Source of the DNA: a bacterium | GTDB lineage: Bacteria; Hydrothermota; Hydrothermia; UBA1063 | Length of the DNA stretch: 33,070 nt | Direction of reading: 5' to 3' | Assembly: GCA_030019025.1 (NCBI GenBank) | Contig: JASEFR010000017.1 | Location: forward strand, 5,117 to 38,186 | In this document: piece by piece, positions 13,940 to 33,070 of the stretch | How positions within the stretch are numbered: position 1 is the stretch's first letter | Layout of the letters: each line of letters starts with the position of its first letter | Notes under the pieces: generated by a model | Told to the model about the DNA's origin: nothing | What the model saw: the letters and a program-made list of their open reading frames with translations, nothing else | The model's database searches: none | Translations under genes and position numbers: made by a program

Positions 13940-15532
13940 ATGGCCCTTGACGTTAAAGCCCTTGAAAACTGGCTATGGGAGGCGGCCTGTTCCATTCGCG
14001 GGCCGGTTGACGCCCCAAAATTCAAAGATTACATCCTCCCGCTTGTCTTCCTGAAGCGACTTTCAGACGTTTTTGAGGACGAACTTAACCGACTTGCTGA
14101 AGAATTTGGTGGCCGAGCAGCAGCAGAACGAATAGTAGAAAGTGAACGCGAACAGGGCACAATTGCACAAGGACGTGGCTCTGTGCGCTTTTACATTCCC
14201 GAAAAGGCACGCTGGGAAGCCATCCGCACTCACGGGCAAGCAGGACTCGGGCAATTTCTCACCGACGCTGTGAGGGCTGTGGCTCAGGATAACCCGCGTC
14301 TTCAGGGCGTCATTGACATCGTGGACTTCAACGCCACAGCTGCCGGACAGCGCATTGTATCCGATGAGTATCTGGCCCTTTTGGTTAATGCACTTTCGCG
14401 TCATAGGCTGGGGCTTTACGATGTAGAACCGGACATCCTTGGACGAGCCTATGAATACTTACTGCGTAAGTTCTCGGAGGGACAGGGGCAGAGCGCTGGA
14501 GAGTTCTATACTCCGCGGGAGGTAGCCATCCTTATGGCCCACATTCTGGAGCCCGAGCCCGGCATGACAGTTTACGATCCTGCCTGCGGATCAGGAGGCT
14601 TGCTCATAAAGTGTCATCTACGCCTTCTGGAAACGCACGGGGAGGAGCAAAACGGCCGACGTCGTCTACCGCCGAAACACGCACCCCTTCGCCTCTATGG
14701 CCAGGAGATCAACCCCACCACCTTTGCCATGGCCCGAATGAACGCGGTCATCCACGACATGGAGGCCGATATCCGCTTAGGTGATACCATGCGCAACCCT
14801 GCCTTCAAGGACAAGGCAGGCAGGCTGGAGCGTTTTGATCTGGTAGTAGCCAATCCCATGTGGAACCAGAACTTCCCCACCGAGATTTATGAAAACGACC
14901 CTTACGAGCGCTTCTCTTTCGGCGTTCCGCCATCCTCCAGCGCCGACTGGGGCTGGCTTCAGCACATGCTCGCCTCCCTCAAAGATCAGGGCCGTATGGC
15001 GGTAGTACTGGATACAGGTGCGGTTTCACGGGGGAGCGGCAACCAGGGCTCAAACCGCGAGCGCGACATCCGCAAGGCTTTTGTGGAGCGCGACCTCATC
15101 GAAGCTGTGGTGTTACTTCCCGAGAACCTGTTTTACAACACCACCGCACCCGGCATCATTCTGGTAATCAACAGAAAGAAGAAGCATCCAGGCCAGATCA
15201 TGCTCATCAACGCCTCCAAACTCTTCGCCAAAGGCCGGCCCAAGAACTACCTGGCCGAGGAGCACATCAAAAAGATCGCCGGCCTCTATCACGAGTGGAA
15301 AGCCGAGGAAGGCCTTTCTGCCATCATCACCAACGAAGAGGCGGCCCGCAATGATTATAACCTCTCACCCAGCAGGTATGTGGTGACCAACGACAAAGAA
15401 GAGGTCCTGCCCTTGGAGGAGGCAGTGGTGCTGTTGCGGGAGGCTGAGGAGGAGCGTGCCCAAGCTGATGCGCAGCTTAAGGAAGTGTTGCGGGTGTTGG
15501 GTTTAGGAGGACTCAATGCCAAAGATTCATGA
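13940..15532 (+). CDS. hsdM: Type I restriction-modification DNA methyltransferase subunit HsdM
   Basis: Adenine-N6 methylase subunit that, with HsdS, methylates host DNA at the HsdS-specified site. The 530-residue length is usual. The N-terminal helical HsdM_N domain (ALDVKALENWLWEAACSIRG, DYILPLVFLKRLSDVFEDEL) is followed by GEFYTPREV (187-195), the SAM-binding motif I DPACGSGG (213-220), LYGQEINPTTFAMARMN (252-268) and the catalytic motif IV as NPMW (305-308). NPMW instead of NPPF occurs in one HsdM branch. The C-terminal helices (VLPLEEAVVLLREAEEERAQ) contact HsdS. It heads the operon and overlaps the next gene by 17 nt. GC content is clearly higher than in the flanking genes, indicating transfer. 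Confidence 0.95.
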   Translation: MALDVKALENWLWEAACSIRGPVDAPKFKDYILPLVFLKRLSDVFEDELNRLAEEFGGRAAAERIVESEREQGTIAQGRGSVRFYIPEKARWEAIRTHGQAGLGQFLTDAVRAVAQDNPRLQGVIDIVDFNATAAGQRIVSDEYLALLVNALSRHRLGLYDVEPDILGRAYEYLLRKFSEGQGQSAGEFYTPREVAILMAHILEPEPGMTVYDPACGSGGLLIKCHLRLLETHGEEQNGRRRLPPKHAPLRLYGQEINPTTFAMARMNAVIHDMEADIRLGDTMRNPAFKDKAGRLERFDLVVANPMWNQNFPTEIYENDPYERFSFGVPPSSSADWGWLQHMLASLKDQGRMAVVLDTGAVSRGSGNQGSNRERDIRKAFVERDLIEAVVLLPENLFYNTTAPGIILVINRKKKHPGQIMLINASKLFAKGRPKNYLAEEHIKKIAGLYHEWKAEEGLSAIITNEEAARNDYNLSPSRYVVTNDKEEVLPLEEAVVLLREAEEERAQADAQLKEVLRVLGLGGLNAKDS

Positions 15533-16871
15533 GAGCGAAAGCGAAACCCTGGAGTTTAAACGTCAGTGGACGGACAGGGCTTTGGAGGATCTGGCCGCCT
15601 TCGCCAATACTGAGGGAGGGGTCCTTCTGATCGGCGTTCGAGAAGACGGTGAAGTTGTTGGAGCGAAGTCTGATGATAAGGAACTTCAACGCATAGCCAA
15701 TCTGATTGCTTCTCATTTGGGCATAACGCCCTCCTTGGAAGTGGCGGAGATCGAAGGCCATTCCGTGATTAAGATCCGGGTGGAGCCCGCGCCTTATTTG
15801 GTAAGCTATGGAGGCCGATACCTTCGCCGAGTAGGCACTACCAACCGAGACTTCGCGCCGCAGGAACTGGCCCGCCACATTCTAAACCGTTCCGATCGCC
15901 ATTGGGACGGGCTTCCGAGCGAATGGAGTATTGAAAAAGTCGACGGAGAAGCCATCGCCTATTTTGCACGCCTTGCCCTTGACAGGCTTCCACAGATTGA
16001 TCCAGCTGAACCTGAACATGTCCTGCAAAATCTTGGCCTTCTCAGCGAAGGTCGGCTCAGCCATGCGGGAGTTTTACTCTTTGCTAAACATCCGCAGCGC
16101 CTCTTCCCTCTGGCGCAAGTACGGATCGGTATCTTTCGAGGGGATCACATCCTGGACAGTCACGATTTTCAGGGCACGCTGTGGCAACAGCTGGATGGTG
16201 CCCTTGAGCGTTTCAGGCAGATACTCAAAGTGCGTTTTGATATTCAGGTGGAGAAACCTTCACTGGAGGGGCTTCAACGCCGGGAGGTCTGGGAATATCC
16301 GTTAGAAGCCCTGCGGGAAGCGGTGGTGAACGCCCTCATTCATCGAGACTACACCTATCCGGCGGATATCCAGATTCGCCTCGAAGAAGATCGCCTTGAG
16401 ATCTGGAGTCCGGGCGAACTACCTCCACCTCTTACACCGGAGGCACTTTACGGGCCTCACGCCTCGGTATTGCGCAACCCCCTCATCGCACAGGCCTTCT
16501 ACTTTGCCGGCATCATTGAACGCTGGGGAACGGGCACCACGCGCATCGTAAATCTCTGTCGCGAGCAGGGGCTGCCGGAGCCCGAATTCGCCAACTGGCA
16601 AGGAGGTGTCCGTGTTACCTTTCTGAAAGACCCTTACACGCCGGAGCGGCTCCGTAAGATGGGGCTGAACGATCGGCAAATCAAAGCTGTGCTATATGTG
16701 AAGGAACGGGGAAGCATCAGCAATCGGGAGTATCAGGCACTAACAGGGGTCAGGGAAAGGACGGCTACCAGTGAACTGGGGCAACTGGTAGCGCTTGGTG
16801 TTTTCGAACGCATCGGCACCACAGGCCGAGGAACGCGCTATGGCGCAAGAAAGCCGCAAAAGGCGCAATGA
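15516..16871 (+). CDS. AlbA_2 (Schlafen-like) ATP-binding putative regulator
   Basis: A 451-residue protein. It has an AlbA_2/Schlafen N-terminal domain (ESETLEFKRQ 8-17, AFANTEGGVLLIGV 28-41, RYLRRVGTTN 101-110), often proposed to bind nucleic acid. A GHKL-type ATP-binding segment follows (EAVVNALIHRDY 268-279, WSPGELPPPLTP 297-308, ERWGTGTTRI 335-344). A C-terminal winged-helix part starts near 375 (LNDRQIKAVLYVKERG, ISNREYQALTGV). This architecture is common in proteins annotated as ATP-dependent DNA helicase-related or transcriptional regulators near restriction systems; the exact role is not known, and control of RM expression is an inference. GGAGG sits 6 nt before ATG 15516, inside hsdM, so translation is coupled. 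Confidence 0.82.
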   Translation: MPKIHESESETLEFKRQWTDRALEDLAAFANTEGGVLLIGVREDGEVVGAKSDDKELQRIANLIASHLGITPSLEVAEIEGHSVIKIRVEPAPYLVSYGGRYLRRVGTTNRDFAPQELARHILNRSDRHWDGLPSEWSIEKVDGEAIAYFARLALDRLPQIDPAEPEHVLQNLGLLSEGRLSHAGVLLFAKHPQRLFPLAQVRIGIFRGDHILDSHDFQGTLWQQLDGALERFRQILKVRFDIQVEKPSLEGLQRREVWEYPLEALREAVVNALIHRDYTYPADIQIRLEEDRLEIWSPGELPPPLTPEALYGPHASVLRNPLIAQAFYFAGIIERWGTGTTRIVNLCREQGLPEPEFANWQGGVRVTFLKDPYTPERLRKMGLNDRQIKAVLYVKERGSISNREYQALTGVRERTATSELGQLVALGVFERIGTTGRGTRYGARKPQKAQ

Positions 16872-16975
16872 AGGCGCAGCAATGGAGCAAAAGGCGCGTG
16901 AAAGGATGCAAGGAGTGTTCGGAAATGGCTCAAAGGGGACTTAAAGGGGACACAAAGGGGACAAAAGAGCCATGA
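16868..16975 (+). CDS. Mini-ORF (35 aa) bridging the AlbA_2 gene and hsdS by ATGA overlaps
   Basis: The ATG at 16868 overlaps the TGA of the AlbA_2 gene (ATGA), and its own TGA at 16973 overlaps the ATG of hsdS (ATGA). The peptide MKAQQWSKRRVKGCKECSEM... is very basic with two cysteines (KGCKEC). Its second half is made from three copies of an 11-bp unit (AAAGGGGAC plus 2 nt). Double ATGA overlap would let ribosomes pass from one gene to the next, so it may be a translational bridge rather than a functional protein. It is not recognised as a family. The chance of a spurious frame is real. Confidence 0.4.
   Translation: MKAQQWSKRRVKGCKECSEMAQRGLKGDTKGTKEP
16932..16962 (+). repeat. Three exact AAAGGGGAC repeats, period 11, just before hsdS
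   Basis: AAAGGGGAC occurs at 16932-16940, 16943-16951 and 16954-16962. Each contains a GGGGA Shine-Dalgarno-like core, and the last lies 9 nt before the hsdS start. Copy-number change of such a repeat could alter spacing or frame of the mini-ORF. Confidence 0.75.
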
Positions 16976-18279
16976 CAGGAAAGGAACAGGGCAAAGCTTG
17001 GAACAACAATACCTTAGATCTCCCCGAAGGCTACCGCATGACCGAGCTCGGACCATTGCCCGAGGAGTGGCGGGTGGTGAGGTTGGGGGAGGTGGTAAGT
17101 TTAACTAAAGGGCGAAAGCCGCCTAAACTGTTGAACGCTTATGTTGCTGGGGCTTTGCCATACTTGACAGCTGACTATTTTCGTACAGGGGCTGCCAGCG
17201 GGTGGGTTCCGGTTGAATGCTTATCTCGCATGCCACTCTGTTCCCGAGAGGATGTAGTGCTCATCTGGGACGGCTCAAAAGCTGGACAAGTTTTTACAGG
17301 TCTTGACGGAGTCCTCGCATCCACCATGGTTCGGGTTACGCCTACAGAAGACCTCCGTCAGGACTATCTTTTTTTCCTCCTTTCCATTCAGTTTGAGCTG
17401 TTAAACACGCAAACAACAGGGTCAACTATTCCCCATGTCAATAAGGAGCTTTTCCACAATCTTTTCATCCCCCTTCCCCCGCTCCCCGAGCAGCGCGCCA
17501 TTGCCCACGTCCTGCACGCGGTGCAGGAGGCGAAGGAGACTACCGAGCGGGTCATCGCCGCTGCGCGGGAGCTGAAAAGGAGCCTCATGCGCCACCTCTT
17601 CACCTACGGCCCCGTGCCCGTGGACCAGGCCGACCAGGTTCCCCTGCAGGAGACCGAAATCGGCCCCATCCCAGCGCACTGGCGGGTGGTGAGGCTGGGG
17701 GAGGTGGTAAGTTTAACTAAAGGGCGAAAGCCGCCTAAACTGTTGAACGCTTATGTTGCTGGGGCTTTGCCATACTTGACAGCTGACTATTTTCGTACAG
17801 GGGCTGCCAGCGGGTGGGTTCCGGTTGAATGCTTATCTCGCATGCCACTCTGTTCCCGAGAGGATGTAGTGCTCATCTGGGACGGCTCAAAAGCTGGACA
17901 AGTTTTTACAGGTCTTGACGGAGTCCTCGCATCCACCATGGTTCGGGTTACGCCTACAGAAGACCTCCGTCAGGACTATCTTTTTTTCCTCCTTTCCATT
18001 CAGTTTGAGCTGTTAAACACGCAAACAACAGGGTCAACTATTCCCCATGTCAATAAGGAGCTTTTCCACAATCTTTTCATCCCCCTTCCCCCGCTCCCCG
18101 AGCAGCAGGAAATCGCCCGCATCCTGCGCGCGGTGGACGAAAAAATCCAGGCCGAAGAAAGGCGAAAGGAGGCGCTGGAGGGGCTCTTCAAGGCGCTGCT
18201 GCACCATCTGATGACCGCCAGGGTGCGATTGCCCAAGGAATTCATTGCCCGGTTTGAGGAGGTGACCAACCATGAGTAA
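16972..18279 (+). CDS. hsdS: Type I RM specificity subunit HsdS with two identical TRDs
   Basis: HsdS chooses the DNA target of the type I enzyme; each target-recognition domain (TRD) reads one half-site. In this 435-residue protein TRD1 (33-174) and TRD2 (237-378) are identical in sequence, both beginning WRVVRLGEVVSLTKGRK and ending IPLPPLPEQ. They are joined by a central helical spacer (RAIAHVLHAVQEAKETTERV...) and followed by a C-terminal helical region (QEIARILRAVDEKIQAEERR). Normal HsdS has two different TRDs giving an asymmetric bipartite site; this one should read the same half-site twice, in opposite orientation, giving a palindromic bipartite site. Overlap is 4 nt with the mini-ORF and 8 nt with the DUF262 gene. 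An internal start at Met23 is possible. Confidence 0.93.
   Translation: MTGKEQGKAWNNNTLDLPEGYRMTELGPLPEEWRVVRLGEVVSLTKGRKPPKLLNAYVAGALPYLTADYFRTGAASGWVPVECLSRMPLCSREDVVLIWDGSKAGQVFTGLDGVLASTMVRVTPTEDLRQDYLFFLLSIQFELLNTQTTGSTIPHVNKELFHNLFIPLPPLPEQRAIAHVLHAVQEAKETTERVIAAARELKRSLMRHLFTYGPVPVDQADQVPLQETEIGPIPAHWRVVRLGEVVSLTKGRKPPKLLNAYVAGALPYLTADYFRTGAASGWVPVECLSRMPLCSREDVVLIWDGSKAGQVFTGLDGVLASTMVRVTPTEDLRQDYLFFLLSIQFELLNTQTTGSTIPHVNKELFHNLFIPLPPLPEQQEIARILRAVDEKIQAEERRKEALEGLFKALLHHLMTARVRLPKEFIARFEEVTNHE
17068..17494 (+). repeat. Direct repeat copy 1: TRD1 of hsdS
   Basis: 427 bp identical to 17680-18106 except T17083 versus C17695 (offset 612). The ends fall exactly in the conserved flanks WRVVRLG and LPEQ. 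Near-perfect identity including silent positions means a recent duplication or gene conversion. Confidence 0.95.
17680..18106 (+). repeat. Direct repeat copy 2: TRD2 of hsdS
   Basis: Second copy of the 427-bp TRD sequence; see the first copy. Immediately outside both ends the sequences diverge (CGCGCC versus CAGGAA on the right), so the surrounding spacer helices are not duplicated. Confidence 0.95.
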
Positions 18280-20041
18280 CCTGCTTTTCAAAAAGGTGGA
18301 TTACACCGTAGGAAAACTGCTGGAAGATATCGCAATTGGGGAAATCGGGCTGCCGGACATCCAGCGGCCCTTTGTATGGGACACTAGCCAGGTGCGTGAC
18401 CTCTTTGATTCCATGTACCGTGGTTATCCCATCGGCACCCTGCTCTTTTGGGAAAATGGCTATCCCGGCGAACACCGCATCATCGGGGTGGACAACAAGC
18501 AAAAGGTCCCCCACCTGCTCATCGTAGACGGCCAGCAACGCCTTACCGCGCTTTACGCGGTGATGAAGGGCGTGCCCATTGTGGACAAAGATTTCCAACA
18601 ACGCCGGTTACGCATTGCCTTCAACCCGGTAGAAGAGAAGTTCGAGGTCACCAACACAGCCATCGAACGCAGTCCGGAATGGATTCCCGACATCAGCGTG
18701 CTCTGGCAAACCGACTTTGATCAGTATGCTTTCGTCTCCGAGATTATGGAGCGCCTGGCCGAGCGCCACCTGCCCACCCCCGAAGACCGCAAACGGATTC
18801 CAAAGGCGATCCAGCGGTTGGTCAACCTCATCAACTACCCGCTGACCGCGCTGGAAATCTCGGTCAACGCCACGGAGGAACAGGTTTCGGAGATTTTCGT
18901 GCGCATCAACAGCCGTGGCCGCACCCTCAACCAGGCGGATTTCATCCTCACGCTGATGTCCGTCTTCTGGGATGAAGGCCGCAAAGAACTGGAAGACTTT
19001 GCCCGCCGGGCCAAGCAGCCCTCGGCGGATAACTGCCCATCTCCTTATAATCCGTACTTTCAGCCGTCGCCGGACCAACTGCTACGTGTGGATGTCGCCC
19101 TGGCCTTCCGCCGCGCCCGGTTGGAGCATGTCTATTCCATCCTGCGGGGCAAAGACTTGCAGACCGGCGAATTTTCGCCCGAACGCCGCGATGTCCAGTT
19201 TGCGCTCTTGCAAGAAGCCCAGGCCAAAGTGCTGGACCTGCAGAACTGGCACGAATTTCTTAAAGTGATCAAGCGGGCTGGATACATCCACCCCAAGATG
19301 ATTACCTCCGAAACGGCGCTGGTCTACACCTATGCCCTATGGCTCATTGGCAGCCGGGATTTTAGAATGGATCTCTCTAATCTTCGCGACCTAATGGCCC
19401 GGTGGTTCTTCATGAGCTCCCTCACCGGCCGCTACACCTCTTCCCCTGAGACGCGTATGGACCAGGATTTGGCCATGCTGCGCAATTTGTCCCGTGAGGA
19501 AGATTTCGTACGGGTCCTCGAGCACGAGATGGCCGCGGTGCTGACTCAGGACTACTGGAAGGTGACGTTGCCCAACGAACTGGCCACCGCATCGGCCCGA
19601 AACACCGGGCAATCTGCCTATTTCGCCGCTCTGTGCATCCTTGACGCGCCCGTGCTATATTCACGCATGAAGGTTCGCGACCTGCTGGACCCTTCTACTC
19701 ACGCCAGGAAACAGGCCCTGGAACGCCACCATCTATTTCCCCGAGGATATCTGCAGAGTCAGGGCATTACCGACCCCCGTGACATCAACCAAGTAGCCAA
19801 TTATGCGCTGGTGGAATGGTACGACAACATTGACATCAGCGATCAACCGCCGGCTGAATACGCGCCCCAATACGAAGCGCGCTTTAGCAGCGACGAGTTG
19901 CGGGAAATGTACGAGTTCCACGCCCTGCCCGAAGGATGGTACACCATGGATTACGAGACGTTTTTGGAAGAGCGCCGCAAACGCATGGCCGCCATCATTC
20001 GGCGGGGTTTCGAACGCCTTTCACAGGGACAGATATGCTAG
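18272..20041 (+). CDS. DUF262/GmrSD-like putative nucleotide-dependent DNase
   Basis: A 589-residue protein with a DUF262 N-terminal domain: DIQRPFVWDTSQVRDLFDSM (29-48), GYPIGTLLFW (51-60) and the hallmark LIVDGQQRLTAL (83-94), the proposed nucleotide-binding loop of GmrS. The middle (about 120-440) is the helical part with VRINSRGRTLNQADF. Near the C-terminus RHHLFPRGYLQSQ (from about 485) and INQVANYALVEW resemble the H...N beta-beta-alpha nuclease motif of GmrD/DUF1524. GmrSD, BrxU and SspE relatives cleave modified or phage DNA. Placed between hsdS and hsdR, it overlaps hsdS by 8 nt, so it is made with the RM subunits. Whether it attacks modified DNA, and how it spares DNA methylated by HsdM, is unknown. 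Confidence 0.85.
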   Translation: MSNLLFKKVDYTVGKLLEDIAIGEIGLPDIQRPFVWDTSQVRDLFDSMYRGYPIGTLLFWENGYPGEHRIIGVDNKQKVPHLLIVDGQQRLTALYAVMKGVPIVDKDFQQRRLRIAFNPVEEKFEVTNTAIERSPEWIPDISVLWQTDFDQYAFVSEIMERLAERHLPTPEDRKRIPKAIQRLVNLINYPLTALEISVNATEEQVSEIFVRINSRGRTLNQADFILTLMSVFWDEGRKELEDFARRAKQPSADNCPSPYNPYFQPSPDQLLRVDVALAFRRARLEHVYSILRGKDLQTGEFSPERRDVQFALLQEAQAKVLDLQNWHEFLKVIKRAGYIHPKMITSETALVYTYALWLIGSRDFRMDLSNLRDLMARWFFMSSLTGRYTSSPETRMDQDLAMLRNLSREEDFVRVLEHEMAAVLTQDYWKVTLPNELATASARNTGQSAYFAALCILDAPVLYSRMKVRDLLDPSTHARKQALERHHLFPRGYLQSQGITDPRDINQVANYALVEWYDNIDISDQPPAEYAPQYEARFSSDELREMYEFHALPEGWYTMDYETFLEERRKRMAAIIRRGFERLSQGQIC

Positions 20042-20086
20042 CCACAATCAATATGGGTAGATGTCGGCGTGGCCCTATAATCAATT

Positions 20087-20114
20087 TTGGCGCACAGCGT
20101 TTCGCCGCCATAAT
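20087..20114 (+). promoter_or_regulatory. Candidate internal promoter for hsdR
   Basis: TTGGCG (20087-20092) and CATAAT (20109-20114) with 16-nt spacing lie in the 144-bp gap before hsdR, the only real gap in the operon. TGGCG/CGCCA (20088-20092, 20106-20110) is an inverted repeat overlapping both boxes and could bind a repressor, allowing hsdR to be expressed later than the methylase. Inference only. Confidence 0.35.
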
Positions 20115-20185
20115 CTCTATATATCGCATTATATATACACATGTGGGAATACACGGAAATGCGACAAAAACCTCGGAGGCAGCCC

Positions 20186-23083
20186 ATGACCCTCGGGAGT
20201 GAACGGAAAGCAGTTCAAAACCCCTTCCTTCGCTATGCCCAGGAGGTGGGTTGGAAGTATCTTCCTCCAGAGGAAGCCCTGCGCCTTCGAGGTGGTGAGG
20301 ACAGCCCGATTTTAAGAACAGTTTTGATAGAACAGCTCCAGCGGCTTAACCCCGGTGCGGTAGATTCGGTAGCCAAAGCTGAAGAAATTATCGCCCGATT
20401 GGTGCGTGTAAGGCCCAACATTGAAGGGAACCTTGAAGCCTGGGAATATCTCAAAGGGCTTAAGACGGTCTTCGTAGAGGCCGAACGAAGAGAGAAAAAC
20501 ATCCGCCTTATTGATCCAAAGAATGTAGAAGCCAATACCTTCCACATCACGGACGAGTTTCGCTTCATTTCGGGTCACACCGGTATCCGAGCCGACATTG
20601 TACTCCTTGTCAATGGGATCCCCGTTGTTGTAGTGGAAACTAAGGCTGCCACTCGGTCTGAAGGGATCGCCGAGGCCTTTGACCAGATTCGCCGCTACCA
20701 CGAGCAGGGACCAGAACTTATGGCCCAAGCCCAGCTCTTCGCCCTCACCCATCTGGTCAGGTTCTTCTATGGCCCTACCTGGAACCTTTCCCGTAAGGCA
20801 CTGTTTAACTGGAAGGACGAGCAGGCAGGGGACTTTGAAACCTTAGTTAAGACTTTTTTGGCACCTCGCCGGTTGCTGCGTTTACTTACAGATTATATTC
20901 TCTTCGTTAGAAAGGATGGTGAACTTTCCAAGGCAGTACTCAGACCTCACCAGATGAGAGCAGCTGAGAAGGTGATCGTCAGGGCTGCTGATCCGGAGAA
21001 GCGGCGTGGTCTTATCTGGCATACTCAGGGGTCCGGTAAAACATACACCATGATCACAGTAGCCAAGTTGCTCTTAGAAGACCCTCATTTTGAGAACCCC
21101 ACGGTGCTCATGATAGTGGACCGCAATGAACTCCAGCAGCAGCTCTTCCAGAACCTGGAATCAGTGGGATTTAATCGAGTTGTTGTAGCTCAAAGCAAGC
21201 GTCACCTGCGCGACCTCCTGAAGCATGACACCCGGGGGCTGATTGTCTCAATGATCCACAAATTTGACGACGCTGATGCCAATCTAAACACTAGAAAAAA
21301 CATCTTTGTACTTGTGGATGAAGCCCACCGCTCCACCGGTGCTAACCTGGGGAACTATCTGATGGGTGCACTGCCCAACGCCACATTCATCGGCTTTACC
21401 GGCACACCTGTTGACAAAACAAGCCACGGAAAGGGCACCTTCAAGGTTTTCGGCGGTGGAGATCCTGGTGGTTATCTTGATAAGTATTCCATTCGCGAAT
21501 CTATCGAAGACGGTTCAACGGTCCCACTTCATTATCAGATGGCTCCCAACGATCTTGTGGTGGACCGAGAGGCGATGGAAAAAGAATTCTGGTCAGCAGC
21601 TGAACTTGAGGGCGTGGCCGACGTAGAAGAACTAAACCGTGTTCTTGACCGGGCTGTCACCCTTAAGAACATGCTCAAAAACCCTGACCGGATTGAGAAA
21701 ATCGCCGCTTTTGTGGCGGACCACTTCCGAAAATATGTGGAACCCATGGGCTACAAGGCCTTTCTGGTAGCGGTAGACCGCGAGGCTTGCTGTTTCTATA
21801 AAGAAGCACTCAATCATTACCTACCATCTGAGATGAGTCAGGTACTCATCAGTCGCGGGTATAACGATCCACCCCACATGCGGCGCTACCACATAAATGA
21901 AGAGGAAGAAGCTTCTATCCGCAGGGCTTTCCGTAAACCTGATGAAAACCCCAAGATCATAATTGTTACCGATAAGCTTCTTACCGGATACGATGCGCCC
22001 ATACTGTACTGCATATATCTGGACAAGCCTATGAGAGACCATGTACTGCTACAGGCTATCGCCCGTGTCAACCGTCCCTATGAAGACGAACAAGGCCGTC
22101 GTAAGACAAGCGGTTTGATCGTTGACTTCCTTGGCATCTTTAATAATCTGGAGCGCGCACTTGCATTTGACTCAAAAGATGTGGAAGGGGTCGTTCAGGG
22201 GCTGGAGGTATTGCAATCCCACTTTTCGGATATGATGCTTGAAGCACGGGAAAAATATCTTCCAATAGCTCAAGGGAAAAACGAAGACAAGGCCGCGGAA
22301 GCTGTTTTACTTTATTTTCGGGACAAAGAAATCCGCGAAAAATTCTATCGATTCTTCCGCGAACTTGAAGAAACCTACGAAATTCTCTCACCAGATCCAT
22401 TTCTTCGCCCTTATCTGGAGGATTACCAGAAGCTGGTAAACATGTATCGTCTCCTAAGAGGCGCTTACGAACCAGGCGTGCCAGTAGACAAGTCATTCCT
22501 GCATAAGACTGCTCAAATCGTGCAAAAACACACAACTACAGAAACAATACACGAACCGCACAAAACCTATGAAATCGGGGCTGGAGCGCTTCTGGCTTTG
22601 ACTAAAAACGATAAACCCGACACAGTAAAGGTGTTCAACCTTCTTAAAGAACTATATCGACTCGTTGAACTTGAAGGTAAAAAGGAACCCTATCTCATTC
22701 CCATCGGGGAGCGAGCAGAGGCTATTCGTCGTGCCTTTGAAGAACGACAACTTGACAGTCAGCAGGCTTTAGAACAACTTTCAGAACTGGTTCATGACAT
22801 TCAGGAAGCACAGACACAGCGACAGAAAAGTGAACTCTCACCGGAAGCTTTTGCTGTAGCCTGGTGGCTAAGAGTGCAAAAGGGAATTGACGCAAAACAG
22901 GCTGAAAAGCTGGCCGCTTCTTTGGAACCCGCCTTCCGAGACTTTCCCCACTGGGCTGTAAGTGCAACTCATGAGCGTGAACTACGCAAAAAGATTTACA
23001 AAGAGCTAATCAACGCGGGTATAAAGGATGTGGTTGCCTGGACCGACGAGATGTTCACCTTACTCCGAAAGGCTACGACATGA
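20186..23083 (+). CDS. hsdR: Type I restriction endonuclease/translocase subunit HsdR
   Basis: Motor and nuclease subunit that pulls unmethylated DNA and cuts it at a distance. Start 20186 (965 aa) is preferred over the longer frame from 20141 because GGAGG lies 6 nt before it. The nuclease domain shows RADIVLLVNGIPVVVVETKAA, with D137, E151 and K153 of the PD-(D/E)XK fold. The SF2 helicase core carries Walker A TQGSGKT (280-286), DEAH (378-381), TGTP (405-408), then TDKLLTGYDAP and LLQAIARVNRPYE for motifs V-VI. Further C-terminal helices bind HsdM/S. GC content is lower than in hsdM-hsdS-DUF262, suggesting a different origin for this half of the island. It ends in a 4-nt ATGA overlap with the next gene. 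Confidence 0.95.
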   Translation: MTLGSERKAVQNPFLRYAQEVGWKYLPPEEALRLRGGEDSPILRTVLIEQLQRLNPGAVDSVAKAEEIIARLVRVRPNIEGNLEAWEYLKGLKTVFVEAERREKNIRLIDPKNVEANTFHITDEFRFISGHTGIRADIVLLVNGIPVVVVETKAATRSEGIAEAFDQIRRYHEQGPELMAQAQLFALTHLVRFFYGPTWNLSRKALFNWKDEQAGDFETLVKTFLAPRRLLRLLTDYILFVRKDGELSKAVLRPHQMRAAEKVIVRAADPEKRRGLIWHTQGSGKTYTMITVAKLLLEDPHFENPTVLMIVDRNELQQQLFQNLESVGFNRVVVAQSKRHLRDLLKHDTRGLIVSMIHKFDDADANLNTRKNIFVLVDEAHRSTGANLGNYLMGALPNATFIGFTGTPVDKTSHGKGTFKVFGGGDPGGYLDKYSIRESIEDGSTVPLHYQMAPNDLVVDREAMEKEFWSAAELEGVADVEELNRVLDRAVTLKNMLKNPDRIEKIAAFVADHFRKYVEPMGYKAFLVAVDREACCFYKEALNHYLPSEMSQVLISRGYNDPPHMRRYHINEEEEASIRRAFRKPDENPKIIIVTDKLLTGYDAPILYCIYLDKPMRDHVLLQAIARVNRPYEDEQGRRKTSGLIVDFLGIFNNLERALAFDSKDVEGVVQGLEVLQSHFSDMMLEAREKYLPIAQGKNEDKAAEAVLLYFRDKEIREKFYRFFRELEETYEILSPDPFLRPYLEDYQKLVNMYRLLRGAYEPGVPVDKSFLHKTAQIVQKHTTTETIHEPHKTYEIGAGALLALTKNDKPDTVKVFNLLKELYRLVELEGKKEPYLIPIGERAEAIRRAFEERQLDSQQALEQLSELVHDIQEAQTQRQKSELSPEAFAVAWWLRVQKGIDAKQAEKLAASLEPAFRDFPHWAVSATHERELRKKIYKELINAGIKDVVAWTDEMFTLLRKATT

Positions 23084-26159: not shown

Positions 26160-26166
26160 GTTAGCT
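26160..26166 (+). other. GTTAGCT core site at the left end of the membrane-protein cassette
   Basis: GTTAGCT fits the integron R' consensus GTTRRRY, as does GTTAGGC at 27118-27124. On the minus strand this is AGCTAACAACGTATAGCGG, like the R'' arm of an attC that would follow the membrane-protein gene; its other half appears to be lost at the transposase remnant. Weak evidence on its own. Confidence 0.3.
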
Positions 26167-26174
26167 AATACCCA

Positions 26175-27002
26175 TCACTTTTTCTCCTTTGTGGATTCTA
26201 CCAGTTGTATCTTTTTAAAAGAAAGGATGAGAGCATAGATAGAGATAAAGACCAAGGGGAGATGTAACACTCCATTCCACCACAAAATATCGGGCTTAAT
26301 CAAAAAATTCTCTACCATATTCCAGAAACCAATGATTATTCCAGCGAGGCTTGTAACCCTAAGGGTTACGATATTAACCTTGGGATAATAAAAAGTGAGT
26401 ATTCCAAGATATACAGGCGTCATGGTACAAAAGGCTAAACCCGCTGGGTTTGTGAATAAATAAACAAGATTAAAATCAGGTTTCATTGATTCAAGGTTTA
26501 CTGGATACCAGAAGGCTAAAAATGCTAATGGGACAACCCAATATCTTGTAATAGGTAGTTTTTGAGGAGTGAAATTATTTTTATTAACAGATGCCTCCCA
26601 GAACCAGAAGATGGAAACAAGTATCATGAGGATGAAATTACCTGTCACCATTCCAAAACCATATTTATCGGTTATCGCGATACCTTGAAGAAATGCAAAA
26701 AGAAGATAATTAATACCAACATAAAAAGAAAAGATTCTGCCAATTCGATTTCCATACAAAATTAAAGCAAAAACTAAAATAATTGGAATAATTTTGAAAA
26801 CAGGATACAAAGGAGAGCAAAATCTAAGCAAGGAATTCTGGCGTATATGTCTTATAATTTCACCTATTTTAGAAGGATCAAATCCTTTTGTAACAATCGG
26901 TGGACTTATCGTTCCGACCAGAATAAAAAGAACTAAAAACCACCATTTACGAGTTATTAATTCAAGTGTCCCTTGAATTTTTTCAAGATTTTCTTTTTTC
27001 AT
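26175..27002 (-). CDS. Multi-spanning inner-membrane protein, unknown function
   Basis: A 275-residue protein, most of it transmembrane: about eight hydrophobic helices can be read, e.g. WWFLVLFILVGTISPP, IIPIILVFALILYG, YLLFAFLQGIAI, FILMILVSIFWFWE, WVVPLAFLAFWYPV and FISIYALILSFKK. No known transporter motif is recognised. ATG 27002 is chosen over a GTG at 27011 since GGGAGG sits 8 nt before it. The gene lies between two integron-like core sites (26160 and 27034-27124) on the minus strand, downstream of the type III operon, as one cassette would. It could be an accessory gene captured with the RM genes; its job is unknown. Confidence 0.6.
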   Translation of the reverse strand: MKKENLEKIQGTLELITRKWWFLVLFILVGTISPPIVTKGFDPSKIGEIIRHIRQNSLLRFCSPLYPVFKIIPIILVFALILYGNRIGRIFSFYVGINYLLFAFLQGIAITDKYGFGMVTGNFILMILVSIFWFWEASVNKNNFTPQKLPITRYWVVPLAFLAFWYPVNLESMKPDFNLVYLFTNPAGLAFCTMTPVYLGILTFYYPKVNIVTLRVTSLAGIIIGFWNMVENFLIKPDILWWNGVLHLPLVFISIYALILSFKKIQLVESTKEKK

Positions 27003-27033
27003 AATCTTCACCTCCCTTGATTAATCCGATTGC

Positions 27034-27124
27034 GTATAACATTTTGCGGACATACGAAGTCCCGACGATACTCGGGATTTGGGCGGAGGTGCGAAGCACC
27101 GTAGCCGTATGTCTGCTGTTAGGC
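27034..27124 (-). other. Integron attC-like recombination site at the end of res
   Basis: A 91-bp imperfect palindrome bounded by GTATAAC (close to RYYYAAC) and GTTAGGC (a perfect GTTRRRY). TAACA (27037-27041) pairs with TGTTA (27117-27121). After a TTTT bulge, GCGGACATACG (27046-27056) pairs with CGTATGTCTGC (27106-27116) with one G-T. The centre holds two more hairpins, TCCCGA/TCGGGA (27060-27065, 27072-27077) and GGTGC-GAA-GCACC (27088-27100). Extra-helical bases on one arm are typical of attC. The res stop codon (TAA) is part of the GCCTAAC core, as in many cassettes. No integrase gene is in the window. Confidence 0.5.
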
Positions 27125-29956
27125 GACATCAGCCGTATTGTCTCTCTCACAATCTTCAAGATAGAGTTTTCCACTCCAATCTTTCTCTCGTAAGTATAAA
27201 TATACCCATCTATTGTTAGTGGCTTTGCTCACAGCCTCGCACCACTTTAAAGCAGCGATATTCTTATCAGGAACCTGAATCTCCTCCCTTCCCTTGGTTT
27301 CAATAAGATAATACCCATGATTTGTTTTCACAATAAAATCTGGATAGAACTTCCTCCATTTCCTTTCTCTTGAATCATAATAGGTGATTTTTAATCCCAC
27401 TATATTTGGTATGTTTTTTATGAAGGATATTACATCATCAGCCATTGTTAAAAAGTTTACGAAATCAGCCTCCATATTATTATCCACTGGTGAGGAAGGA
27501 ATTCTTACCTCTTCATCGTCCTCATAAGCAATTCTAACAAATAAGCTCTTTTCTGAGTCAGCAAACTCTTTTGTCCAAGGAAAGCTATCAAGTTCCTCTA
27601 CCTTAATGACCTGCTTCAATTCCACCTCTGTTGAAAAAACGGGATTACTTATCAATGGTTTAGCAAACTCTATTATTTCCATTTTGATCTGCGAATACCA
27701 ACCCTTTACCGATAGAAATCTCAATACAGCATCATCTAATTCAACAGGTTCGTCAAAAAGCTTTTCTGAAATATAGTTCTCTAAAGCATTAAGAAGTAAA
27801 TTAAAAGAATTCGGGAGAGGTATTTCTTCCTGTAAATCTCTTGCTAGTTGAGTTAGTCGTATAATAGAAACATCATATGCCAATGCCTCTATCTCCCCTT
27901 CATCCAAGGTCTGCCCTTTCAAGTCAATAACCTCGTAGTCATATTTTTTCTTGAATTCATCAATTTCAGCTAGCTTATAAACATTTGATGGCAACTTTGA
28001 AAAGATCTCCTTTATAATAGCTTCAACATCTATATTCTCGTTGAAAGATAGAAATTCCGCTTTTGGGATCTCAAACTTCAATTCTTCTTCTGCTTCTATT
28101 CGAGGATTAAACGATACAAAGAACTCTTTTGGAGCTTCTGGAATTTTTATACCTTCAAGCCGTTCAAGGTCATCCAAAACCTTAATGAGATTGGGAGGCC
28201 CCACAACCTCCAAAATATTTACCCATTTTTCTACATTAACACCTTCTTCTGGAAAAAGTTTTCTTAATCCCCTCCCTATGACCTGCTCCGGCAGTATCTC
28301 CCTTTCAGAAGCATAAGATCTAAGCCCTAAAATCACTGTAACCGAGCGGACATCCCAACCTTCGTTCAGCATCATAACGCTGGATATAACCTCTATAGGG
28401 TTATAGGGATCATCAAGTTTCCTTACAAGCTCTACAGCAAGCTCCTTATCAATATCCCTTTCTTCACCGTTTATCCGAATCTTTGATACAATCTCCTTTC
28501 CTTTTTCTTTTAATCTTGTTTTCCATTCATCAAGTTCTGAATGAACAAGCATCATGTTTGATGAATCAATGTCAGGTTCTTCAAGCAGTTTTTCATAAAT
28601 TGCTTCTGCATTTGATATTTCATCTGCCATTATGAATAGAACAGATTTTCTTCCAAGTTCTCTTAATTTCTCTTTATGTTTTCTCCATCTATCTAAAGCA
28701 GCCTTTATGTAGGGTATAAAGTCGTCTATGCTAAAACCTTTTTTGATGGGTGGAGCATCATGGACTATAACCTTTGCTGGATATTTCACAATTCCAGTTT
28801 GCAATGCTTCTCTTAAAGAAAAATCTACAATTATCCACGGAAACAAAGCCCCTTTTTCATCCTTTGGGGTTGCAGTAAAATCAAGTTCCATAAAGATGCC
28901 TTTAGAGTGATTTGAAAGCATAGCCTCGTGTAAACTCCAGAGATAATTCTGCCAACTGCTTTCCTCCCTGTGTATGTGATGGGCTTCATCTTTCAGAATC
29001 ATAAGGTTAGGATAGTTATTTAGTATTTCCCACAGTTTAATCGATTTTGCTTTGTATGGTTCACTTCCAGGATAAGGAATATCAAACAATGGGGTTATAA
29101 TATCTTCTTCTTTCTTCCTTTTCTCTCTAAAACCTATCTGATGGATATTTGTTACAAATATCACGCTCTCATCATCCGGTGGCGGGAACCTATCAGCATC
29201 TGAAAACGTATCCCTTGTGATCACTTGAACTTTAAAATTTCTTTTCCACTCTTCCGGAATAAGGTGGAATTCCTCATATATTGATAAATCCTCAAGGTCT
29301 TTCCTTAGCCTGTCGTAAACTATTATGTTCGGCGCTACAAAAAGAAAGAATCTCGTGTATTTCTCTCTATCCTCATAAAGGTAGTTGAAAAATGACCATA
29401 CAGTTAGGAGAGCCATCGCAAGGGTTTTTCCTGAGCCTGTTGCCATTCTAAAAGCAAATCTTGGATATTTATCGTATTCTTCGTATCCTGAAAGTTTGAA
29501 AGCACCATATTCATTCAAAAGTTCACTAACTTTCGTGATTCCTTTAACTTCATATAAATAAATCAGCGTTTCAACAGCCTCCCGTTGGGAGAACCAGAAT
29601 ACTTTGTCTCTTGGCTGTTCAAACCAGAAATTAAGTAAATATCTCGTCGTATCAGTTACGTTCGGATATCCCTCCTCTCTCCATCTCTTGACTTCTAATC
29701 TTAAATTATTTACGCAGACAGCCTCCGATGGGAACCTTGCATAAGGATCCCCATTCTTTCTCTGCTCATTAGCCCATGCAATACCGTTTAAGATGTATTC
29801 TCTGAACTTCCTTTTAACATTATCAAGATATGGATCCTCAATTCTGATTTCCTTAGGATAAGGTTCAAGAATTGAATCAGGGTGGATGAAAGTTATGTCT
29901 GATGAGGGCTTTCTCACCTCAAATGTCATAACATCTTTTTTCTTTTTTCTTGACAT
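27119..29956 (-). CDS. res: Type III restriction enzyme Res subunit (SF2 helicase + PD-ExK nuclease)
   Basis: Res moves along DNA from its target and cuts when two complexes meet. The start at 29956 (945 aa) is preferred because AAGGGAGA lies just upstream and the longer frame (to 30082) would overlap the preceding gene by 124 nt. Motifs in order: FRMATGSGKT with Walker A at 171-178, then LKDEAHH (DEAH box), LDFTATP (motif III), VMMLNEGWDVRSV (motif V), QVIGRGLRK (motif VI). The nuclease domain near the C-terminus reads YPDFIVK...YYLIETKG, with D873, E886 and K888 of PD-ExK. It is the last gene of the operon, 2 nt after the PIN-TM gene, and its stop codon lies inside the attC-like site. Confidence 0.93.
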   Translation of the reverse strand: MSRKKKKDVMTFEVRKPSSDITFIHPDSILEPYPKEIRIEDPYLDNVKRKFREYILNGIAWANEQRKNGDPYARFPSEAVCVNNLRLEVKRWREEGYPNVTDTTRYLLNFWFEQPRDKVFWFSQREAVETLIYLYEVKGITKVSELLNEYGAFKLSGYEEYDKYPRFAFRMATGSGKTLAMALLTVWSFFNYLYEDREKYTRFFLFVAPNIIVYDRLRKDLEDLSIYEEFHLIPEEWKRNFKVQVITRDTFSDADRFPPPDDESVIFVTNIHQIGFREKRKKEEDIITPLFDIPYPGSEPYKAKSIKLWEILNNYPNLMILKDEAHHIHREESSWQNYLWSLHEAMLSNHSKGIFMELDFTATPKDEKGALFPWIIVDFSLREALQTGIVKYPAKVIVHDAPPIKKGFSIDDFIPYIKAALDRWRKHKEKLRELGRKSVLFIMADEISNAEAIYEKLLEEPDIDSSNMMLVHSELDEWKTRLKEKGKEIVSKIRINGEERDIDKELAVELVRKLDDPYNPIEVISSVMMLNEGWDVRSVTVILGLRSYASEREILPEQVIGRGLRKLFPEEGVNVEKWVNILEVVGPPNLIKVLDDLERLEGIKIPEAPKEFFVSFNPRIEAEEELKFEIPKAEFLSFNENIDVEAIIKEIFSKLPSNVYKLAEIDEFKKKYDYEVIDLKGQTLDEGEIEALAYDVSIIRLTQLARDLQEEIPLPNSFNLLLNALENYISEKLFDEPVELDDAVLRFLSVKGWYSQIKMEIIEFAKPLISNPVFSTEVELKQVIKVEELDSFPWTKEFADSEKSLFVRIAYEDDEEVRIPSSPVDNNMEADFVNFLTMADDVISFIKNIPNIVGLKITYYDSRERKWRKFYPDFIVKTNHGYYLIETKGREEIQVPDKNIAALKWCEAVSKATNNRWVYLYLREKDWSGKLYLEDCERDNTADVA

Positions 29957-29958
29957 TT

Positions 29959-31860
29959 TTATTCTCCCTTCAAAAATCCTTTTATTCTCTTCACAAGAAA
30001 CTGTTTGCTCTGTTTGACTGTTATTCCTAACGCTCCCAAAATAAATAAAATAACTGTGAAAACTATGCTGATAGCCTTCCATATCGTTCCCTTCAAAAGT
30101 AACGATAATACAAGTAAAATAATTCCAAGCGATAGACTAAACCAGATTATCATTGTGGCGTATTTTTGTGCTCTTCTAGAGAGTTTTTCTTCTCTTTCCT
30201 TCTCCTTTCTTTTCATTTGTTCTAGTTCTTCACGGGTTTTTTCGTGGCTCCGTCTTTCCTCTTCGTATTTCTGCGATGCTCTTTGTTCAATTTCCTGCAG
30301 AATTTCAATAGCTGTTTTAGGAGATATAGCTTCTGGATCACCCAAGTTTTTTTTATCTAAAAGTTCTCGCGCAATTTGAGAATCACGCAGAAGAATGAAA
30401 TCTTCCTCGGTTATATTTCCTTCTGTTAAAAGTTTTTTAATCTCTGAATACCACTTTTCCATAAATTCGCCACTGTCTCGTAGAATAGCCATAGACATTG
30501 AAATGAGAGTCATAGGCATTATTTCTTGAACCTTGACAGGATCATTAAGCCATACCATTGTACCCAAGAAAATATCAGTTATGCATGGTGGGATATAAAA
30601 ACCCCGCGGAGATTTTTCTTTATGAAATACACTAGAAGCATAGGCAAGACCGGCATTAGAAGTGATAAAGATACATTTTGCCTGTTTAAGATTAATTGGT
30701 TTACTTCCTTGCCAGAGCTGATATATAGCCGAAATTGATTGTACGTCTCTTTCTATTGTGAGTTCTTTTTCACAATACACAAAGCTAGGATTTTTCTCAT
30801 AAATTTCTCTTATATAATTTTTCAGCTTATTCCTATCTATGCTATATTCAGGCTTTTCTTGAGGAGTAAGTTCAATTTCTATACCTATATTTAACAAATT
30901 ATCTTTTAATTTATCACTAATCAATATAATATCGGATTGATGAAAACCTTTTTCTTTAAAATGCCTCAAGGACAAGCTTGCTTTTGACGGATCATACGCG
31001 GGGCTATCTATCCATTTATAACAGTCATCCAAAATATCCATTACTTCCTCATAAGTATGTTGAAAAATGCGAAGTTTAATTCCTTCCTCTTTCAATTTAT
31101 TTATAAAATTCTTATATATTTCTTTCATCTCTTCTCCTTCTCCACCTATAAGTCGCAAAATTATTCTTGTATCTAGATATACTTTTAGTCCTTTTAATTT
31201 AGTCTTTATTGCATTCTGATCGTATAAAATAATATTTGAAAGCAAATACCCTGTTGCAACATTTTGAAGGAGCGACCATCCATCCTTATCATTCTCGTAC
31301 ATATAAAGAATCACTCTGTTGACAATAAACAACTCTTCACGTTTTTCAGAAATTATCGTTCTTTTAAGAACATCTAAGCCTTCAATTTCGCTGGTAAGCG
31401 CGGATGGACCAAAACTATTTAAATAATTTATAAGAGCATTTTTTATTCGATCTTCTGTAATCGACTTTTGAGGGAAAATATTACTGGCGTGCGCTGCTAT
31501 TATTTTGATTAAATTATTAACGGAACGTTCGGCACTATTGACATTAAATACGTATTTACTAAGTTCTTCTTCTTTAATGTAATATGTATGTTGCGTTTTC
31601 TCTAAAAGTTTTCTTTTTCTAGCTCTATTTAACAATGATAAGAGTGGATGATAAGGAATCTTAAGACCAAATTCTTCTTCAATTTCTTTGGAAATACGAT
31701 TTACAAATTCAGAGGTTTCATCTATAGATGAATAATTTTTTCTTCTAAAAAATTCAGCTAAAAAGTAGAGATATATATCCAATAAATCCTTACCTTCCTT
31801 ATCCCATAGTACCTTAAGATACGCCAAACTTACCAAGGTTTTTTCTGATGCCTGCTCCAT
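29959..31860 (-). CDS. PIN-like nuclease with coiled coil and two C-terminal TM helices
   Basis: A 633-residue protein inserted between mod and res. Residues 65-110 look like a small helix-turn-helix-like segment (LKIPYHPLLSLLNRARKRKL). Residues about 222-440 resemble a PIN-like domain: GLKVYLDTRIILRL with D230, HTYEEVMDILDD with E271/E272, IERDVQSISAIYQL with D372, and CIFITSNAGLA with S401/N402, the four expected acidic/polar positions. A long coiled coil (about 520-565: QEIEQRASQKYEEERRSHEK, REELEQMKRKEKEREEKL) leads to two TM helices (571-589 and 594-613) and a basic tail. It suggests a membrane-anchored RNase or DNase effector. It lies 7 nt after mod and 2 nt before res. I know no named family for the whole protein. 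Confidence 0.6.
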   Translation of the reverse strand: MEQASEKTLVSLAYLKVLWDKEGKDLLDIYLYFLAEFFRRKNYSSIDETSEFVNRISKEIEEEFGLKIPYHPLLSLLNRARKRKLLEKTQHTYYIKEEELSKYVFNVNSAERSVNNLIKIIAAHASNIFPQKSITEDRIKNALINYLNSFGPSALTSEIEGLDVLKRTIISEKREELFIVNRVILYMYENDKDGWSLLQNVATGYLLSNIILYDQNAIKTKLKGLKVYLDTRIILRLIGGEGEEMKEIYKNFINKLKEEGIKLRIFQHTYEEVMDILDDCYKWIDSPAYDPSKASLSLRHFKEKGFHQSDIILISDKLKDNLLNIGIEIELTPQEKPEYSIDRNKLKNYIREIYEKNPSFVYCEKELTIERDVQSISAIYQLWQGSKPINLKQAKCIFITSNAGLAYASSVFHKEKSPRGFYIPPCITDIFLGTMVWLNDPVKVQEIMPMTLISMSMAILRDSGEFMEKWYSEIKKLLTEGNITEEDFILLRDSQIARELLDKKNLGDPEAISPKTAIEILQEIEQRASQKYEEERRSHEKTREELEQMKRKEKEREEKLSRRAQKYATMIIWFSLSLGIILLVLSLLLKGTIWKAISIVFTVILFILGALGITVKQSKQFLVKRIKGFLKGE

Positions 31861-31867
31861 CGTTTTT

Positions 31868-33070
31868 TCAACCCCTCACATTAACCATAATCTCCTTTGA
31901 AGTCTCTCCGCCAAATATGTCCGTTATCTTAACCACGACTCTGTAGGTTCCTGATCGCTCATAAGTATGGGTCGCCTTAACAATCACATTCCCTTCTCCA
32001 GGTTTTTTATCAAAACTTACAAAATCATGTTTGAAGACAGCCCCATCGTAATTCCAGTCTACAGCCCAGTAGTTTATGAGCGGAAGGAAATACTTCTGTC
32101 TTTCTTGGTCGCTTTTTGCTTCTTGAATTCTCTTTCTTATCTCCTCTTCAAGTTCCTCATAGCCGTGTGGAAGCTCCACCCAAAAGTCCTTAATTTCAAT
32201 TTCCACTTTTAGTCCGTCCTCCTTTACTTCAAGCCACACATACCCCGGCTCTATAAACCTCAGATGCTTCCTTACTTCCTCATCAAAGGCATATTCAAGC
32301 CTTGCAACCTTTGATAAATCAAGGTTGTATCTCTTCATAACTTCGTCAAGTTTTCCAATAGGTGGAATGTGCAAGAGCTTTAACTTAACATCCTGCATCT
32401 CCCATAAATCTTTGGCCCTCTCAAAAGTATCAGGTGCCCAGTCCCATCCGAGGATCACGAGAGTCCATCCATCTCTGTAGAAAGGTGTTTCTTTAAATTC
32501 CTTAATAACTTCGTGGATCTCAGCAGGTGTCACCGGAAAGTTCGCCTGACCAACATGAATTATTTCTCTCTCCTTCTCTCTTAAGCCGTGAAGATACTTA
32601 AATACTTGCCTCATCGGAGATGCCCCGTAAAGATTCAGAATCAGATTAATAACATCCACTCTGTTATACATCTTATCCGTCATGTAGTTTGCTATGGTCA
32701 CGTGGTAGAAAGGCCTTACAGGCTTTCTATAAAGGGGTCTTTTGCTCTCGTCCTCAACCTTTACGCCGAGTGCCATTGAATTCGCTATATCCAAAAGCCT
32801 CTTTCTCGTTACATGAATCGCATACTTTGACATATCACAGCATACCCATCTTCTTCCAAGTTTCTCAGCAACTGCCGCAAGAGTCCCAGACCCACAGAAG
32901 AAGTCAGCCACGATGTCGCCTTCGTTTGAAGATGCCAGAATAATGCGTTCAAGGAGCTTTTCGGGTTTTTGGGTGGGATAGTTTAAATTTTCCTCAGCAT
33001 TTGGCCTTAAATATGGTATCTCCCACCAATCTTCAGGGATTTTGCCTTCAGGGTGTATCTCCCTTACAAA
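31868..33070 (-). CDS. mod: Type III DNA methyltransferase Mod, C-terminal part (5' end outside window)
   Basis: Adenine methyltransferase and specificity subunit of the type III system. The 400 visible codons continue open past the window edge, so the gene starts to the right and the catalytic DPPY motif is not visible. Visible parts are YPTQKPEKLLERIILASSNE, the conserved Mod segment, and IVADFFCGSGTLAAVAEKLG, the SAM-binding motif I, then GRRWVCCDMSKYAIH. The middle (FKETPFYRDGWTLVILGWDW) belongs to the Mod C-terminal region. The last 60 residues (HDFVSFDKKPGEGNVIVKAT, ERSGTYRVVVKITDIFGGET) look like a PKD-type beta-sandwich, unusual for a cytoplasmic methylase. Mod is first in the mod-PIN/TM-res operon. 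Confidence 0.88.
   Translation of the reverse strand, partial: FVREIHPEGKIPEDWWEIPYLRPNAEENLNYPTQKPEKLLERIILASSNEGDIVADFFCGSGTLAAVAEKLGRRWVCCDMSKYAIHVTRKRLLDIANSMALGVKVEDESKRPLYRKPVRPFYHVTIANYMTDKMYNRVDVINLILNLYGASPMRQVFKYLHGLREKEREIIHVGQANFPVTPAEIHEVIKEFKETPFYRDGWTLVILGWDWAPDTFERAKDLWEMQDVKLKLLHIPPIGKLDEVMKRYNLDLSKVARLEYAFDEEVRKHLRFIEPGYVWLEVKEDGLKVEIEIKDFWVELPHGYEELEEEIRKRIQEAKSDQERQKYFLPLINYWAVDWNYDGAVFKHDFVSFDKKPGEGNVIVKATHTYERSGTYRVVVKITDIFGGETSKEIMVNVRG

Follow-up and report, generated by a model that had tools for sequence, protein, structure and literature searches.

A probable attC-like recombination site closing a mod-X-res restriction cassette in an integron-like platform whose integrase lacks the I2 insertion

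The window – the whole stretch of DNA analysed here, 33,070 nucleotides – ends at the end of its contig (C17), inside a row of restriction genes that we refer to as mod-X-res and that are all read from the minus strand. The downstream member, res (27119–30082), encodes a type III-like restriction helicase/nuclease (Pfam ResIII, 2e-14; REase_III in PADLOC) with a weak TnsA-like nuclease domain (Pfam, 5e-4), and would be the last gene of the cassette described below; a homologous restriction-type gene is present in genome G056. Upstream of it lies X (29959–31860), coding for a 633-residue protein with no assigned function, a weak DUF2207_C match only, and a single homologue in the phylum (33% identical). 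Of the third gene, mod (31868–33070), which encodes a type III-like DNA methyltransferase (N6_N4_Mtase), the C-terminal part is present, because the contig ends within the gene. A type I restriction operon occupies positions 13940–23083 on the plus strand, with hsdM, a Schlafen/AlbA-type gene, hsdS, a GmrSD-like gene and hsdR all in one direction.

The stop codon of res falls within a folded element at 27027–27131 that has the anatomy of an integron attC site, and that consists, in gene direction (minus strand), of an R'' core, a body and an R' core. Read directly, the letters 27034–27124 have GTATAAC at 27034–27040 and GTTAGGC at 27118–27124, the latter containing the res TAA (minus strand, 27119–27121). 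The R'' core TGATGTCGCCTAAC (27118–27131, minus) forms the end of the restriction cassette, and the R' core G^TTATACGCAATCG (27027–27040, minus) the start of the next one, with the crossover placed after the G by analogy with integrons. Between them the first arm of the main stem, GCGGACATACG (27046–27056), pairs with the second, CGTATGTCTGC (27106–27116), over 11 bp with one G-T. A 5-nt unpaired spacer, ATTTT (27041–27045), lies opposite a 1-nt spacer (27117), and the body holds two inner hairpins, AAGT...ATTT at about 27057–27080, whose bottom strand has a conserved G-T pair, and GGTGC-GAA-GCACC at 27088–27100. Folded as DNA, the plus strand reaches -22.1 kcal/mol against -12.9 +/- 2.35 for shuffled sequences (z -3.9; equalled by 0 of 200), and the minus strand -16.7 kcal/mol (z -2.6); the better-folding plus strand is thus the 'bottom' strand of the site. 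The 91-bp imperfect palindrome of the first-pass annotation, with its two cores, 11-bp stem and two inner hairpins, is therefore confirmed by direct reading and by the fold, as is its coincidence with the res stop.

The first-pass annotation also placed a second core, GTTAGCT, at 26160, and proposed that the membrane-protein gene lying between the two (26175–27011, minus), which starts just past the site and is a candidate for the next cassette, forms a cassette by itself. The heptamer is present at 26160 and the site is not: the local fold is unremarkable (z -0.6 and +0.3) and an unfiltered search with our covariance model (R1) finds nothing nearby, so this candidate was rejected. Because no site exists there, the reading of the membrane-protein gene, an open reading frame with no Pfam match and with no R1 match to its left, as a cassette is not supported.

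At the level of BLAST the site has no second copy in its own genome, and relatives are found in 17 of a set of 147 WOR-3/Stahlbacteria genomes, its own included. An Rfam search of the site gave no match at the gathering threshold, and only chance matches at a relaxed one, and a plasmid collection screened by DNA similarity to the site gave none. The covariance model reaches further, with sites in 66 of the 147 genomes. R1 scores the site at 27027–27131 with 96.2 bits (E 6e-24), a value that is not independent evidence by itself because this site is among the 13 used to build the model. In this genome R1 finds seven further sites, all on contig C9 and all in the same direction. The family also occurs in Nitrospirota, Caldisericum, Bipolaricaulota, Dehalococcoidia and archaea; some of these phylum labels may be binning errors, because most of the loci are MAG contigs.

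The fold is conserved across the family. In the site alignment (A1), both partners vary at ten base pairs. Paired cells make up 94.5%, compensatory cells number 36 against 11.9 in shuffled alignments, the covariation score is 0.400 against 0.181, and none of these last three values was reached in 500 shuffles. The main stem corresponds to helix 3 of A1, with compensatory changes in 7 of its 10 pairs, inner hairpin 1 to columns 31–35 with 53–57 (98.5% of cells paired), and inner hairpin 2 to helices 5–6. The stem is mostly uninterrupted (at least 8 of 10 pairs in 92 of 114 sites), and asymmetric spacers are typical, 1–2 nt and 5–6 nt being the commonest lengths among the 114. The R'' core ends in AAC in 98 of the 114 sites and the R' core starts with GTT in 92, with the strict consensus RYYYAAC / GTTRRRY matched by only 36 R'' and 38 R' cores. 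A repeated variant R'' core, TAATTATTATC in place of ..TAAC, was seen in L091 (7120–7133 and 11390–11403) and also in L015 and L018. When folded as DNA, 112 of 122 sites have a bottom strand that is more stable than the top strand (p 3e-19), a bias likely caused by conserved bottom-strand G-T pairs that become A-C mismatches on the top strand.

Sites of this family are organized in one-way arrays. Among 66 sites at 21 loci (20 array loci and the window), every locus has a single orientation, and genes point in the direction of the sites in 60 of 62 cassettes, which have a median length of 1,163 bp. The ends of the cassettes are informative. Comparing 14 nt from each edge, the two ends of the same cassette are complementary at 9.18 of 14 positions; the cores facing each other within a site reach 7.47, no better than the 7.44 of random pairs. 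The same-cassette value was reached in 0 of 10,000 permutations, and the pattern is repeated in the loci outside WOR-3 (9.1 against 6.67; 0 of 20,000). The test is biased, if anything, against this outcome, because R1 pairs the cores of one site. The R'-side core of a site thus matches the end of the next cassette rather than its partner core in the same site, and such own-end complementarity is the hallmark of circulating cassettes whose site consists of their own two ends. A 2.1-kb methyltransferase cassette is common to a WOR-3 locus (L096, 8023–10110) and a Caldisericum locus (L111, 1866–3911), the two copies being 69.6% identical, with similarity dropping around the flanking sites. Restriction and methylation cassettes recur in these arrays. 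Three same-genus relatives were compared as possible empty sites; one has a site and none has a strong integrase match, and no empty site was obtained.

The same logic of matching ends links the restriction operon to a second contig. The operon end TGATGTCGCCTAAC (27131–27118) has an exact complement, GTTAGGCGACATCA, on contig C11 (823–836, minus), just ahead of the start codon of a type III-like mod gene that is truncated by the C11 end. All 14 of 14 positions agree, a match reached by none of 12,616 core pairs drawn from different loci, and the two mod pieces are successive parts of one PADLOC model (PDLC03633; positions 24–253 on C11 and 268–365 on C17). C17 and C11 are thus probably neighbours, with mod-X-res a single cassette of at least about 6.8 kb, the join being inferred. 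Ahead of the cassette start, C11 carries two palindromes resembling an attI, and a tyrosine integrase that is broken. The objection of the first-pass annotation that a restriction operon would be too large for a cassette is countered by these complementary ends; the attI-like junction and the integrase remnant also support the very large cassette.

Contig C9 of the same genome has the same layout as C11, with attI-like sequence and a broken integrase. Both integrases of this genome are pseudogenes, and the platform here therefore looks decayed. The regions upstream of the two broken integrases (L081, 8428–9900, on C9; L031, 840–1900, on C11) are alike, which suggests that the platform was duplicated, and the C11 platform adjoins an apparent tRNA-Asn gene. 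Elsewhere in WOR-3, intact relatives of the integrase head arrays, lying upstream of them in the same direction. The attI-like element usually lies between the integrase stop and the first cassette, and consists of two palindromes of the type ATATCCGAA..TTCGGATAT followed by GAACGA and GTTA; the two-palindrome form is present in most of 21 loci. The junction with the first cassette (G^TT) is 45–180 bp past the integrase in most of 22 loci, the exceptions being L103, where it is 1.4 kb away, and a few loci with no clear junction. In many loci the start of the first cassette matches its own attC end at 12–13 of 14 positions.

Integrase and sites also go together at the level of genomes. Within WOR-3 the integrase occurs in 13 genomes, all of which have sites; of the 134 others, 53 do (Fisher p 1.5e-5), so that 53 genomes have sites with no strong integrase match. 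Among 12 genomes of other phyla, sites are present in 6 of 6 with an integrase of this type, carrying the HARP-like region described below, and in 0 of 6 lacking it. Intact relatives, mostly 55–70% identical, also head arrays in Nitrospirota, Desulfobacterota, Bipolaricaulota, Caldisericum, Marinimicrobia, Spirochaetota and archaeal MAGs, and many of these integrase loci have sites downstream in the expected orientation. Four Patescibacteria-type loci (L130, L132, L134 and L135) have an integrase lacking both the HARP-like region and I2, with sites upstream and pointing away in the classical layout. A relative with 40% identity that includes the HARP-like region is encoded on a finished Chryseobacterium plasmid from an isolate (NZ_CP041688), followed by a cassette-like gene row in which R1 finds no site. 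On this plasmid (L172, 8900–17005) the HARP-type integrase is followed by small genes, an IS110 element, a group II intron and four copies of a 282-nt hairpin-rich repeat, some hairpins of which look attC-like by eye.

The integrase comprises a SAM-like core-binding domain and a Phage_integrase domain. Against the integron integrase model it scores about 218–225 bits, below the cutoff of 265, with a match split in two, and the alignment shows that the IntI-specific I2 insertion is absent between its two halves. The intact proteins pass the XerA/integron model NF040815 (236–244 bits; cutoff 220). No IntI above the TIGR02249 cutoff was found in any of the 147 WOR-3 genomes, in a search that gave 508 bits for IntI1 and near full-length matches of 354–454 bits in other genomes. 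The nearest solved structure, by sequence and by fold, is IntI4 (2A3V). In the tree, the IntI sequences group as one clade (100/100) that nests with other recombinases lacking I2 (97/93). Next to it lies the core clade of HARP-type integrases (92/67), and XerC/D is far from both (100/99); the exact branching order is tentative because several long branches were flagged. As a separate observation, true IntIs at L175–L177, L184, L185 and L191 are 434–502 residues long, and in most of them an N-terminal extension re-matches the core-binding region.

The first 75 residues of the integrase are predicted to fold alone with confidence (pLDDT 90), and weakly resemble, by profile and by fold, the HARP domain of SMARCAL1 and the N-terminal region of XPB. 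Pfam detects this HARP-like region (PF07443) in 11 of 20 members at E values up to 1 (best 8e-5), and the structural matches are likewise weak (4O66: profile E 0.05; Foldseek probability 0.89, E 0.12). The HARP domain is described as necessary for fork reversal in SMARCAL1 and UvsW (PMC4666394), and the region is therefore proposed as a reader of folded DNA.

Taken together, the comparisons make it highly probable that a cassette of roughly 6.8 kb, mod-X-res, has its attC-like recombination site at 27027–27131, within an integron-like platform; all of the evidence is comparative. Such a platform has three parts: a tyrosine integrase of XerA/IntI type in which I2 is absent and an N-terminal HARP-like domain is usual; a double-stranded attI past the 3' end of the integrase gene, with two palindromes and then GAACGA^GTTA; and a one-way array in which each cassette ends in a folded site. 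The bottom strand of the site would fold and undergo integrase cleavage at G^TT, and one strand would be exchanged with attI. The choice of strand would come from the G-T pairs and the 5-nt/1-nt spacer asymmetry, not from extrahelical bases, and the HARP-like domain would aid recognition of the folded DNA.

A first alternative is a classical integron remnant (CALIN), with ordinary attC sites that are mobilised in trans by a normal IntI encoded on a different replicon or in a different species. Most reported archaeal integrons are IntI-less clusters (PMC9668308), and true IntI is present in some genomes that have the I2-less system. We nonetheless regard this explanation as unlikely, for the search that detects IntI where it is present finds none above the cutoff in the 147 WOR-3 genomes, and the arrays are headed by an I2-less integrase with a matching attI. 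Moreover, L''/L' boxes with one extrahelical base and symmetric spacers of 4–6 nt on both sides are found in 0 of 114 sites, against 3 of 3 class 1 attC sites – a yardstick of three sites only, picked by a similar rule-based scan – and R1 does not find class 1 attC.

Palindromic, often intergenic sequences scattered through many genomes could instead be dispersed repeats, or MITE/IS ends, that insert near stop codons. Such elements would not be expected to form arrays of one strict orientation, to have ends that match cassette by cassette, or to come with an attI-like junction and a tyrosine integrase, and the single BLAST-level copy in the own genome also speaks against them; the matching-ends test already largely refutes this reading, which we judge very improbable. 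Slighter still is the chance that the site acts as RNA, terminating the upstream gene or forming a structure at its 3' end. Its folding and its position at gene ends would suit that role, but in 112 of 122 sites the strand that would be RNA is the less stable one when folded as DNA, Rfam gives no match, and the complementarity links ends that are kilobases apart.

The attC-like reading of the site bears on how integrons arose. Escudero et al. (PMC4792948) posed a chicken-and-egg paradox, asking how, given that I2 recognises the extrahelical bases of attC, selection could have favoured one in the absence of the other, and noted that I2 had not been identified elsewhere. A cassette system missing both I2 and the extrahelical bases, and run by close relatives of IntI, would be the intermediate type sought and would make the paradox testable; the I2-less system is a candidate for such an intermediate state or for a sister solution, and may show what integrons were before I2 and extrahelical bases evolved. 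More speculatively, and with somewhat less than even confidence, we propose that the platforms preserve a pre-I2 integron grade, one with folded single-stranded cassette sites and arrays but neither I2 nor extrahelical bases, and that classical IntI arose within it by gaining both together, the HARP-like domain being an alternative solution for reading attC. Surveys that demand the domain specific to IntI would overlook a network of integron-like gene exchange in many bacterial phyla and some archaea, and could tally I2-less arrays as orphan clusters. In a search covering published open-licence full texts we found no paper describing I2-less integron integrases with cassette arrays.

The platform shares with the classical IntI integrons, both class 1 and chromosomal, palindromic sites that fold and whose R''/R' cores end in AAC/GTT, one-way arrays, cassette starts that complement their own ends, an attI junction and a favoured bottom strand. 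Its distinguishing features are an integrase with no I2 and, usually, a HARP-like N-terminus, sites with neither extrahelical bases at the L-box position nor symmetric 5–6 nt spacers, and a double-palindrome attI past the 3' end of the integrase gene. Judged from its sequences, the platform is not a classical integron, because the phylum has no IntI above the cutoff, the integrase no I2 and the sites no canonical L boxes; the first-pass label of an attC-like integron site thus stands for the anatomy and falls for the classical system. The joint absence of I2 and its partner bases is what one would expect under co-evolution. The archaeal integrons (PMC9668308) resemble our arrays in being attC arrays in archaeal MAGs, mostly lacking IntI, and some of those IntI-less arrays might belong to the I2-less system; the IntIs reported there carry the additional domain, unlike the I2-less integrase of the arrays described here. 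An 'integron-like' subgroup of tyrosine recombinases has been named (PMC8138268), whose insertion-less members are not tied to cassette arrays or a HARP-like domain in the excerpted text of that source. The XerA/XerCD recombinases (NF040815, 'site-specific tyrosine recombinase/integron integrase') have the same core domains and also lack I2, but the integrase described here heads cassette arrays with an attI and is set apart from XerC/D in the tree (100/99).
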